Source: Gilliamella apis | GTDB lineage: Bacteria > Pseudomonadota > Gammaproteobacteria > Enterobacterales > Orbaceae | Direction: 5' to 3' | DNA length: 64,000 bases | NCBI RefSeq assembly: GCF_030758615.1 | Contig: NZ_CP132381.1 | Location: forward strand, 744,001 to 808,000 | Part shown: piece after piece, positions 14,162-17,037 of the stretch | How positions within the stretch are numbered: position 1 is the first letter of the stretch | Layout: every line of letters starts with the position of its first letter | Translations under genes and position numbers: made by a program | Notes under the pieces: model-generated | Seen by the model: the letters and a program-made list of their open reading frames with translations, nothing else | What the model was told of the DNA's origin: nothing | The model's database searches: none

Positions 14162-14526
14162 TGGTGGAGCTGGCGGGAGTTGAACCCGCGTCCGAAATCT
14201 CTACATCCTTGGTACTACATGCGTAGTTTGTCTTTAAATTTCGCTTACCCGCTGCGGACAAACACGCCACTGATAAACTAGCTTGATTAAATTTAATGCT
14301 TCCGCCCCAAGCAAGGCTTCCACACGATCTCGTTTAGGTTTGACTCCTCTTGATCCCCGTCCTACGAGCGGAGGCTAGGGAGAGAAGGCTCTATACAGGT
14401 TATTAAGCTGCTAGTGCGTAGTTTTCGTCGTTTGCGACTATTTTTTTGCGGTTTATTTACGAGGCCTACCGCACCTCGGCATGCACCTTGGGTTTCGCAA
14501 ATCCCGTCGAATCCAGAATCAGCCCC
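14162..14526 (-). ncRNA. ssrA: tmRNA (ssrA)
   Basis: A 365-nt tmRNA for ribosome rescue. The mature 5' end GGGGCTGATTCTGGATTCGA and the 3' tRNA-Ala-like end GGGTTCAACTCCCGCCAGC with CCA (14162-14164) are both visible. The tag reading frame runs from 14435 down to 14403 and encodes ANDENYALAA then stop, matching the usual alanine-rich proteolysis tag (E. coli ANDENYALAA). Its protein partner SmpB is encoded at 49.5-50.0 kb. Confidence 0.97.
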
Positions 14527-14590: not shown

Positions 14591-15571
14591 TTACCCGACT
14601 TCTGGATTAACCCAATTTTCAGTTGGTTGTTCTGGTTTTAACGCAGAAATAATGTTATCAACAGCGCATTTGGCCATGGCATACCGAGTTTCAGTGGTTG
14701 CTGAACCGACATGTGGTGATAATAAAACATTATCAAGTTTTAATAATGGCGAATCTTTGGCTAATGGTTCAACTTCAAAAACGTCTAAGCCAGCAGCCTT
14801 AATTGTTTTGTTTTTTAATGCTTCATAGAGCGCTTGTTCATCAATTATCGCACCTCGAGCGCCATTGATAAGGATAGCTGATGATTTCATTAACGCTAAT
14901 TTTTGTTTAGTAATAAGTCGTTTTGTTTGATCGGTTAGCGGTAAAATGATAACAACAAAGTCAGCTTGTTTAAGGACATCATCTAGTTCAAGACGTTTAG
15001 CATGATAGGCTTGTTCAACATGGGTATTGGCTGAACGATTATAATATATGATGTTCATATCAAAACCACAATGTGCTCGTTTAGCTATGGCTTGACCAAT
15101 ACGGCCCATGCCTAAAATACCAATGGTTTTACCATAAATATCTGTACCAAAGTATTCAGGTGTGATGCTTTTATTCCAACCTCCATTATGAATAAGATTA
15201 GATAATTCAACGGTTCGACGAGCGGTAGCCATGAGTAGGGTAAAAATGAGATCAGCGGTACTTTCAGTGAGAACTTTCGGAGTATTCATTAATCGGACGC
15301 CATGTTTTTTCAAAGCAAGCAAATCATAATTATCAAAACCGACTGAAATTGTCGCCGCCGCTTTTAATTTAGGCGTTTGTTGCAAAAAACTATCATCAAT
15401 TCGAGTTGGAATATTAGATCCAATCATACCGTCAGCATTGGCTAATATTTGGATAAATTCACTAATATCGGTTTTGGGATCACCTTGAAATAGTGTTAGA
15501 TTGAAAGCTTGCGCTAGTCTTTCTTGCTGATCAGCTGGAATTTTACTAAATAAAACAACATTCTTTTTCAT
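14591..15571 (-). CDS. ghrB: Glyoxylate/hydroxypyruvate reductase B (2-ketoaldonate reductase)
   Basis: A 326-residue D-isomer 2-hydroxyacid dehydrogenase, collinear with E. coli GhrB (324 aa). The NAD(P)-binding motif GILGMGRIGQAIAKRA starts near residue 152, and the catalytic triad region includes NGARGAIIDEQAL (Arg), DVFEVEPL (Glu) and SPHVGSAT (His). It reduces glyoxylate, hydroxypyruvate and 2-ketogluconate. A cytoplasmic single gene just upstream of ssrA on the same strand, with the ssrA promoter directly after its stop. Confidence 0.9.
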   Translation of the reverse strand: MKKNVVLFSKIPADQQERLAQAFNLTLFQGDPKTDISEFIQILANADGMIGSNIPTRIDDSFLQQTPKLKAAATISVGFDNYDLLALKKHGVRLMNTPKVLTESTADLIFTLLMATARRTVELSNLIHNGGWNKSITPEYFGTDIYGKTIGILGMGRIGQAIAKRAHCGFDMNIIYYNRSANTHVEQAYHAKRLELDDVLKQADFVVIILPLTDQTKRLITKQKLALMKSSAILINGARGAIIDEQALYEALKNKTIKAAGLDVFEVEPLAKDSPLLKLDNVLLSPHVGSATTETRYAMAKCAVDNIISALKPEQPTENWVNPEVG

Positions 15572-15788
15572 AAATACTCCTATATAGCTATATAGACTAT
15601 TTTTAGCGCAGTATAGCGTTAGCTTATTTAAATTTGCAATGAAATTAAGTTTTAAGCAAATTAGTTTTTATGTGCTGAAAAATGAGAAATATTTATATTT
15701 TTTTAAATATTTTTTAAAATAATTATTTATATAAATCAATATAATAGAATGTTTTTTAGAAAAATATTAAATTTTTTTGAAATTAATT

Positions 15789-15816
15789 GGAACTTTTTGT
15801 GATTTAGTCTGTCTAT
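15789..15816 (+). promoter_or_regulatory. Putative sigma-E (RpoE) promoter
   Basis: GGAACTT (15789-15795), then a spacer of exactly 16 bp, then TCTAT (15812-15816). The sigma-E consensus is GGAACTT, about 16 bp, TCTRA. The match is strong at -35 and 4 of 5 at -10. No protein gene follows within 320 bp. Confidence 0.6.
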
Positions 15817-15822
15817 ATATTC

Positions 15823-15877
15823 AGATTACGTTAATTCATTTTTTTGCCCTCCACTCATTTTTGAGTGGATTTTTTTT
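15823..15877 (+). ncRNA. Candidate sigma-E-dependent small RNA
   Basis: A predicted transcript of about 55 nt running from the putative sigma-E promoter to an intrinsic terminator. The terminator has an 8-bp stem TCCACTCA / TGAGTGGA, a TTTT loop and eight T at 15870-15877. An unpaired 5' part of about 27 nt ends in TTTTTTTGCCC, beside a CTCC stretch able to pair with Shine-Dalgarno sequences. The layout resembles short Hfq-binding envelope-stress RNAs such as RybB or MicA, but I recognise no sequence similarity to them. The start point is estimated from the -10 position. Confidence 0.5.
15850..15877 (+). terminator. Intrinsic terminator of the candidate sRNA
   Basis: An 8-bp perfect stem, 4-nt loop and 8-T run in a region with no upstream plus-strand ORF. 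Confidence 0.85.
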
Positions 15878-16140
15878 GCCTACAATTTTTATTAGTGCTA
15901 ACTAGTCCTGCTATAGAATTATATAATCTACATAAATAATCGATATATGAAAATATATTGAACAATTATTAACAGCAAGTTAATATCTAGCGATTTTCAT
16001 TATTCTAATAAATAGTGTTATTTTTATTATTATCAAGCCTTTTATCTATTCTCAATTTATTTGGTATATTTAGTCTGGTAACTAAGTAATAAGGTAATGG
16101 ATGGTGCTTAAATACTAATAAGTGAGCAGAGAGAATTTTT

Positions 16141-17037
16141 ATGTTATTTTCATCAAGGACAAAAGGCCACCTAATAGCACTCATGACAGTGTTTATTTGG
16201 GGAATCACTTATATTGCCACCAAAGTTTTACTGACAGATTTTAAACCTATTGAAATTCTCTTTTTCCGATTTACCTTAGGCTATATCACGCTTTGGTTAT
16301 TAGCCCCTCGCTTTTTCGCCTGGCAGGGGATTAAACAAGAGTTGATGTTCCTTGGCGCTGGATTTTGTGGTGTCACTTGTTATTTTCTTTGTGAAAATAT
16401 TGCTTTAACCTATACTACCGCATCAAATGTTGGTGTGATCACCACACTAGCTCCAGTCTTTACTGCTATATTGGCCATCTTCTTCCTTAAGGCTGAAAAA
16501 CCAGCGAAAGTATTTTATATTGGCTGTCTATTCGGCATGATAGGTATAGCCTTAATTAGCTTCAATGGTCAGTTTGTATTATCGGTTAATCCGCTTGGTG
16601 ATTTACTGGCGGTGTTTGCTTGCCTATTTTGGGCGTGTTATTCAATTTTAACTAAAAAAAGTAGTAACTATGGTTACAATATTATTTTATTGACGCGAAG
16701 ATTCTTTTTTTACGGTCTAATGTTTATGTTACCCGCACTGTATTTATTTGGTTTTGAATGGAATTTTTCTCGATTTGAGCAACCAATAAACTTAATGAAT
16801 ATCTTATTTTTAGGCGTCGGAGCTTCAGCTATCTGCTTTGCTTCTTGGAACTATGCTGTAAAATTAGTGGGGGCGGTCAAAATTAGCATCTATATCTATT
16901 TAGTGCCAATTTTGACAATTATTAATGCAGTATTAATTTTAGATGAACCTTTTACATGGATTGCGGCAATAGGTACCTTATTTACACTTGGTGGCGTATT
17001 CTTATCAGAAGGTAAAATCAAACTTAAAAAGCATTAA
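16141..17037 (+). CDS. EamA/DMT-family inner-membrane transporter
   Basis: A 298-residue protein with ten predicted membrane segments in two EamA repeats (HLIALMTVFIWGITYIATKV at the start; VNPLGDLLAVFACLFWACYSI opening the second half). Family members export amino acids or metabolites; the substrate is not predictable here. The C-terminal Lys-rich tail (KIKLKKH) would be cytoplasmic. It is preceded by the region with the candidate sRNA and ends at a convergent terminator. Confidence 0.83.
   Translation: MLFSSRTKGHLIALMTVFIWGITYIATKVLLTDFKPIEILFFRFTLGYITLWLLAPRFFAWQGIKQELMFLGAGFCGVTCYFLCENIALTYTTASNVGVITTLAPVFTAILAIFFLKAEKPAKVFYIGCLFGMIGIALISFNGQFVLSVNPLGDLLAVFACLFWACYSILTKKSSNYGYNIILLTRRFFFYGLMFMLPALYLFGFEWNFSRFEQPINLMNILFLGVGASAICFASWNYAVKLVGAVKISIYIYLVPILTIINAVLILDEPFTWIAAIGTLFTLGGVFLSEGKIKLKKH

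Follow-up and report, generated by a model that had tools for sequence, protein, structure and literature searches.

Does the intergenic region between ghrB and a gene for a DMT-type transporter in Gilliamella apis, a member of a core bee-gut genus, encode an envelope-stress small RNA, and if so, on which messages would that RNA act? The region lies in the window, by which we mean the whole 64,000-nucleotide stretch analysed (positions 744001-808000 of a 2.71-Mb single-contig genome), whose ghrB protein has its nearest matches in Gilliamella (98% identity to those of G. apis NO3 and Gilliamella sp. N-G2). An earlier note, made from the letters of this stretch, had described a sigma-E type promoter followed by a terminator hairpin, and its layout proved exact: GGAACTT and TCTAT are separated by 16 bp, and 33 bp further on begins an 8-bp perfect stem (15850-15857 with 15862-15869) that has a TTTT loop and is followed by eight T residues (15870-15877). 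Its remark that no open reading frame uses the promoter or the terminator also holds, plus-strand open reading frames of at least 60 amino acids being absent between ghrB and the transporter gene. The 56-nt RNA predicted from this layout is predicted to form a single hairpin, its 5' arm unpaired, with no alternative fold (-12.5 kcal/mol; z score -4.4 against 200 dinucleotide shuffles). Coordinates are collected in Table 1.

Table 1. Features of the small RNA locus and its neighbours (window coordinates).
Feature	Position	Strand	Basis or remark
A/T-rich stretch, possible UP-like element	15760..15788	+	putative role, from base conservation
-35 box GGAACTT, sigma-E type	15789..15795	+	GAACTT invariant in 32/32 aligned loci
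Promoter spacer, 16 bp	15796..15811	+	length fixed in 35/35 genomes, several positions variable
-10 box TCTAT	15812..15816	+	TCTAT in 34/35 genomes, TCTAC in 1/35
Predicted small RNA, about 56 nt	15822..15877	+	covariance model R1; start predicted from promoter spacing
5' pairing element AGAUUACG	15823..15830	+	can pair with CGUAAUCU in both porins (codons 3-5)
UUCAU	15835..15839	+	can pair with AUGAA, which includes the porin start codon
U-rich linker	15840..15845	+	in the porB duplex; possible Hfq contact
GCCCUC	15846..15851	+	complementary to the porin Shine-Dalgarno sequence GAGGG(U); last two bases belong to the terminator stem
Intrinsic terminator: 8-bp stem, UUUU loop, U8	15850..15877	+	sequence
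ghrB, 2-hydroxyacid dehydrogenase	14591..15571	-	divergent from the RNA; name from the earlier note
DMT-type transporter gene	16141..17037	+	263 bp past the terminator, same strand as the RNA

The bare motif GAACTT-N15-17-TCTA is not above chance in this genome, with 20 matches as against 36 for a reversed-pattern control, so the weight of the case rests on the composite of promoter and terminator and on its conservation. The composite was defined as GAACTT, 15-18 bp, TCTA or TCTG, and a perfect-stem terminator beginning 15-70 bp further along. The window holds one; a 400-kb sample from elsewhere in the genome holds none, and neither do 200 dinucleotide-shuffled windows.

Conservation was followed through the family. 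With a 121-bp query, BLAST gave matches at E <= 0.01 in 38 of 44 Orbaceae genomes; the 32 long alignments all fall in Gilliamella, and every one of these 32 loci carries the same promoter and RNA, in 23 distinct RNA sequences. A covariance model (R1), built from the alignment A1 of 31 of the loci (L006, whose RNA is identical to that of the window, was left out), finds the RNA in all 35 Gilliamella genomes at E <= 5.7e-10, including three missed by BLAST. A convincing copy was not found in nine genomes of four other Orbaceae genera (best E 0.0145), and an order-level search of 394 genomes from 114 genera, under stricter filters and at E <= 0.001, returned 27 Gilliamella genomes only. The -35 element GAACTTTT, the 16-bp spacer, a -10 region reading TGTCTA and then T or C, the RNA and the terminator are present in all 35 Gilliamella genomes, 7 of which have G before GAACTT and 28 of which have T. 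A comparison of relatives had been suggested as a check, and all 35 genomes of the genus keep the promoter, the unpaired 5' end and the hairpin. Over the 32 loci the commonest-base frequency is 1.0 in both promoter boxes as against 0.46 at 11-80 bp after the terminator, and its mean is 0.80 in the 30 bp directly upstream of GAACTT, compared with 0.68 in the next 50 bp upstream. In the 31-sequence alignment, three of the eight terminator stem pairs are invariant, three vary by wobble only and one is broken in one sequence; one pair changes on both sides (G-C in 20, A-U in 8, G-U in 2, broken in 1). We regard it as highly likely that the locus is a real and conserved gene for a sigma-E type small RNA, and the reading given in the earlier note is supported.

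The weaker matches were read one by one. Among 13 stretches with weak BLAST matches, two (L125 and L126) are the gene and the other 11 are terminators or chance; among 11 stretches with weak model matches (L301-L304 and L308-L314), one (L308) is the RybB-like gene described below and five have the look of terminators or chance. The remaining five (in G000, G006, G018, G019 and G026) correspond to the terminator after one gene, which adjoins what we take to be pth in G000 and G019, the two genomes with listed open reading frames. Seven further weak model matches in other genera are not sRNA-like.

The reverse complement of the RNA's 5' arm resembles a ribosome-binding site followed by a start codon. 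Family searches of the window's genome gave three genes with OmpA domains and a general porin, whose starts were compared with the arm, and a protein search placed the porin in a tandem arrangement, porB followed by porA, with both genes found in 31 of the 35 Gilliamella genomes. The start regions compared across the family came from 41 porA-type, 33 porB and 44 ompA genes. GAGGG and ATGAAACGTAATCT are shared by most of the porins; the departures are the porA genes of G020 (CTTAATCT) and G041 (CGTAATTT) and the porB genes of G003 (CTTAATTT), G030 (CGAAATCT), G004 (Shine-Dalgarno sequence GAGGT) and G028 and G029 (different at both sites). The suggestion that a CTCC block before the stem could target Shine-Dalgarno sequences was right and can be sharpened, since CCCUC pairs with the GAGGG of both general porins. 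The predicted duplex comprises 24 base pairs with porA and 25 with porB, and it spans the Shine-Dalgarno sequence, AUG and codons 2-5.

The search against outer-membrane protein mRNAs proposed with the candidate gave duplex energies of -29.7 kcal/mol for porA and -29.3 kcal/mol for porB. As background, 368 further starts from the window's genome average -10.5 kcal/mol (sd 3.0, minimum -20.6); a simple Shine-Dalgarno rule picked them out of 464 kb of the 2.7-Mb genome (the window plus the 400-kb sample), so that a better target elsewhere is possible. None of 2000 dinucleotide-shuffled arms matched the real duplex for porA or porB, and 36 did so for ompA. The porins stay first with the terminator stem kept closed (-24.4 and -24.2 kcal/mol) and again rank first in cofolding with mRNA structure; with only the 19-nt 5' half of the arm the rank is third, a sign that the arm is needed in full. 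When the RNA and porins of each genome were set against this same background of 368 starts, porA came first in 32 of 32 cases and porB in 30 of 32, the porB pairing being weak in G028 (rank 4) and G029 (rank 14). Rows are missing for porA in G032, G033 and G035, for porB in G033, G034 and G035 and for ompA in G032, and the assemblies concerned (G032-G035) are 59-86% complete. On these comparisons the RNA very probably represses both general porins through a duplex that covers the ribosome-binding site, AUG and codons 2-5.

The duplex with ompA is weaker, at -16.4 kcal/mol (rank 13 of 369; fifth with the stem closed and sixth in the cofold), and with each genome's own RNA against the same starts ompA takes first place in three genomes and one of the top four places in 14 of 34. 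These values are only suggestive; ompA may be a weaker, secondary target reached through the U-rich middle and CC. They also bear on a different account, in which a real sigma-E RNA has broader or different main targets, such as ompA and lipoproteins, and the porin pairing is incidental to an arm that mimics any Shine-Dalgarno sequence with AUGAAA. The arm has such generic anti-Shine-Dalgarno and anti-AUGAAA features, and the rank of 13 in the window's genome and the best-four places among 369 starts fit the account as well; it is nevertheless unlikely, given that about 9 kcal/mol separate the porins from the strongest of the 368 other starts, that AGAUUACG is a specific match to porin codons 3-5 and that porin starts are the only recurring gene starts among the matches listed by the covariance model (11 other matches were read). 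The model is blind to porins; the antisense of a porin start appears among the matches listed in at least 32 of the 35 Gilliamella genomes and at least 6 of the 9 others, at E values from 7.8e-4 to about 0.6, with a terminator-like match (E 0.022) ahead of the porin antisense (E 0.136) in the window's genome. Neither a near-perfect antisense of the arm (24-base pattern, up to 3 mismatches) nor GGAGGG-N4-9-ATGAA was found elsewhere in the genome beyond the gene itself, ungapped patterns of this kind missing the porins because the porin sites need a bulge.

Covariation between RNA and porins was looked at in the same alignments. A candidate compensatory pair occurs in G020, where the RNA has AGATTAAG and porA has CTTAATCT, and it is met by counter-examples, G014 having the same changed RNA with unchanged porins and G003 a porB with CTTAATTT beside an unchanged RNA; the single G020 case is no proof of pairing. 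The porin N-terminus is strongly conserved, also in genera without a convincing RNA copy, so conservation of the site is no evidence of selection for pairing, and the site probably predates the RNA.

The proposed sigma factor is present. Absence of an rpoE gene had been named as a result that would refute the candidate, and the genome has a 190-aa protein, which we take to be RpoE from its sequence, followed by a 186-aa open reading frame that is presumably RseA-like; an hfq gene is also present. Upstream of rpoE lies GGAACTT-16-TCTAA, which has the layout of the RNA's promoter. The -10 box TCTAT differs from the enteric GTCAAA, the motifs given for the Salmonella rybB and micA promoters being GGAACTTTT and GTCAAA (PMC1804206). 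A closer counterpart is described for Rna01 of Actinobacillus pleuropneumoniae, with GAACTT-16-TCTTA and 6 bp to the start (PMC9577009); by this spacing the RNA here would begin at about 15823. That the RNA belongs instead to the housekeeping sigma-70 class, with GAACTT and TCTAT coincidental, is suggested by the A/T-rich surroundings and a TATAT overlapping the -10 box, and is very improbable in view of a scan that finds no plus-strand sigma-70 pair overlapping 15780-15822 and of two invariant boxes at a fixed 16-bp spacing, as in the rpoE promoter.

Other sigma-E-like promoters were seen in the same genome. One (G000:C1:874073-874098, minus strand) has GAACTT, a 16-bp spacer and TCTAA and points from porB towards a gene we take to be asnS; GAACTT-16-TCT is present in 12 of 13 genomes read (L322, L336-L348), with no clear terminator, and the promoter could belong to another small RNA or be a regulator site of the porB promoter. 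Another GAACTT-16-TCTAA (G000:C1:2454996-2455021, minus strand; L334) lies about 36 bp before a gene that, from its N-terminus, is presumably lpxC-like and is a possible further sigma-E target.

The surroundings of the RNA vary. It adjoins the DMT gene, downstream and on the same strand, in 31 of the 35 loci, and ghrB was found in 12 of the 35 in the stretches read. This arrangement would suit a regulatory 5' leader, in which the RNA heads the DMT transcript and a signal of some kind lets transcription pass the terminator, as in attenuation. Four loci lack the DMT neighbour, one at a contig end (L010) and the others in G014, G020 and G024 (L305-L307), where the RNA, with the same promoter, arm and terminator, adjoins in convergent orientation a gene whose protein we take to be FabR, and where neither a DMT nor a ghrB match was found in the 2-kb stretches. 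The element beside fabR thus behaves as a free-standing unit, and in these three genomes the sRNA unit has moved. With the unit found apart from the DMT gene, the first 80 bp after the terminator poorly conserved and the single predicted hairpin leaving no alternative structure, the leader account is highly improbable. A function of the opposite strand, as a tiny open reading frame with a good Shine-Dalgarno sequence (GGAGGGCAAAAAATGAAAAAACGTAATCTG) for a leader peptide or as a porin pseudo-start, has in its favour that the minus strand reads as a Shine-Dalgarno sequence, ATG and MKKRNLLI in 6 of the 35 genomes. It can hardly be credited and the mini-ORF was rejected, since conservation of the peptide is lacking (MN in 7, MKNVIC in 6, other short forms, frameshifts and early stops), with the T-run after the stem on the plus strand only and the promoter directed along that strand. 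A tmRNA gene adjoins ghrB (window 14162-14526, minus strand; 284 bits in Rfam).

Our reading of the locus is accordingly kept as a proposal: a trans-acting RNA of about 56 nt, driven by sigma-E, that in all likelihood lowers general-porin synthesis in Gilliamella. The promoter, the presence of rpoE with an anti-sigma gene, a free-standing terminated RNA and complementarity to omp starts are the traits of the sigma-E RNAs that repress outer-membrane proteins. Following the known pathway, envelope stress would free RpoE from RseA, and RpoE would transcribe the RNA from GGAACTT-16-TCTAT, with transcription expected to stop at the hairpin and U8. The 5' arm would then pair with both tandem porin mRNAs over the computed stretch of complementarity (Shine-Dalgarno sequence, AUG and codons 2-5), probably with Hfq on the U8 tail, and this pairing should block 30S binding and speed mRNA decay. 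If the proposal is true, Gilliamella would have an envelope-stress small RNA with a target strong enough for a one-experiment test.

The other Orbaceae may show what preceded it. In all nine genomes of the other genera (G001, G002 and G037-G043; L229-L237, L242-L250) the porin leaders carry GCAGTGGC 40-44 nt before the start, and in 8 of the 9 ompA has it at codon 9; among Gilliamella starts, searched from -100 to +60 nt, it was found in 0 of 32 porA, 33 porB and 35 ompA genes. A RybB-like gene was read in one Orbus-side genome, G039 (L308:778-834, minus strand; G039:C1:183277-183333), with GGAACTT-16-TCTTA, six bases, GCCACTGC... and a terminator; Rfam gave nothing for its RNA up to E 1, so that it is called RybB-like for its promoter, its 8-nt seed and its terminator. 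The 5' end of RybB, GCCACUGC, is complementary to GCAGTGGC (RybB-16; PMC4911921). The simplest reading suggests that Gilliamella shifted sigma-E control of porins from a RybB-type site to a start-codon RNA. Spelled out, and put forward only tentatively, the other Orbaceae examined would use a RybB-type RNA with the seed GCCACUGC on sites in the porin leader and the ompA coding sequence, and Gilliamella would have lost these sites and acquired a new RNA that is almost perfectly antisense to the porin start and may have arisen when a porin 5' region was copied in inverted orientation. In many relatives the complement of the RNA reads RBS-ATG-AAA-AAA-CGT-AAT-CTG-TTA, as against RBS-ATG-AAA-CGT-AAT-CTA-TTA in the porin, the last codon of this comparison lying before the predicted RNA start. 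If true, the swap of a RybB site for start-codon antisense within one family would open to direct test how a conserved stress circuit exchanges its RNA arm and keeps its output, less porin.

The claim that the RNA resembles no catalogued one is borne out by Rfam, in which no sRNA family reaches its gathering threshold in the window; up to E 10, the region 15700-15950 gives three matches, far below gathering and none of them an enteric sigma-E RNA. A search of the open PMC literature by title found no report of a regulatory small RNA or of RpoE in Gilliamella. Among known RNAs, RybB acts in trans and ends at an intrinsic terminator, and MicF is complementary to the start region of the mRNA of a general porin, ompF. 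The likeness to RybB of Salmonella and Escherichia coli, whose sigma-E promoter has GGAACTTTT and which, when the envelope is stressed, represses the major omp mRNAs (PMC1804206), is one of class: the 5' end of RybB is GCCACUGCUUUUCUUU (PMC4911921), whereas the Gilliamella RNA begins near AGAUUACG and is predicted to pair with the ribosome-binding site and start codon. Its arm is CAGAUUACG... and lacks the RybB 5' end GCCACUGC, and the Rfam family model of RybB does not match it. MicA likewise has a sigma-E promoter, a length of about 70 nt and a role in omp regulation, but its locus is luxS-gshA (PMC1804206) as against ghrB-DMT here, and there is no Rfam match. MicF and ompF are named as a pair in the same source (PMC1804206); the likeness is in mode of action only, as the Gilliamella RNA has a sigma-E type promoter and gives no Rfam match to MicF. 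VrrA of Vibrio cholerae needs sigma-E and represses the translation of ompA by pairing with its 5' region (PMC2628432), but is 140 nt long and has a different target. Rna01, from another gammaproteobacterial family (Pasteurellaceae), with its sigma-E type GAACTT-16-TCTTA and a predicted block of OMP ribosome-binding sites backed by partial tests (PMC9577009), has 86 bp, three stem-loops and an sbcB-eriC locus, unlike the single hairpin and other locus of the Gilliamella RNA; as described in that source, the two are set apart by locus, size and fold and give no sign of shared ancestry. Sigma-E RNAs that lower porins are thus a known kind, and what is new here, as far as searched, is the RNA family, its restriction to one genus and the predicted start-codon antisense under a sigma-E type promoter.
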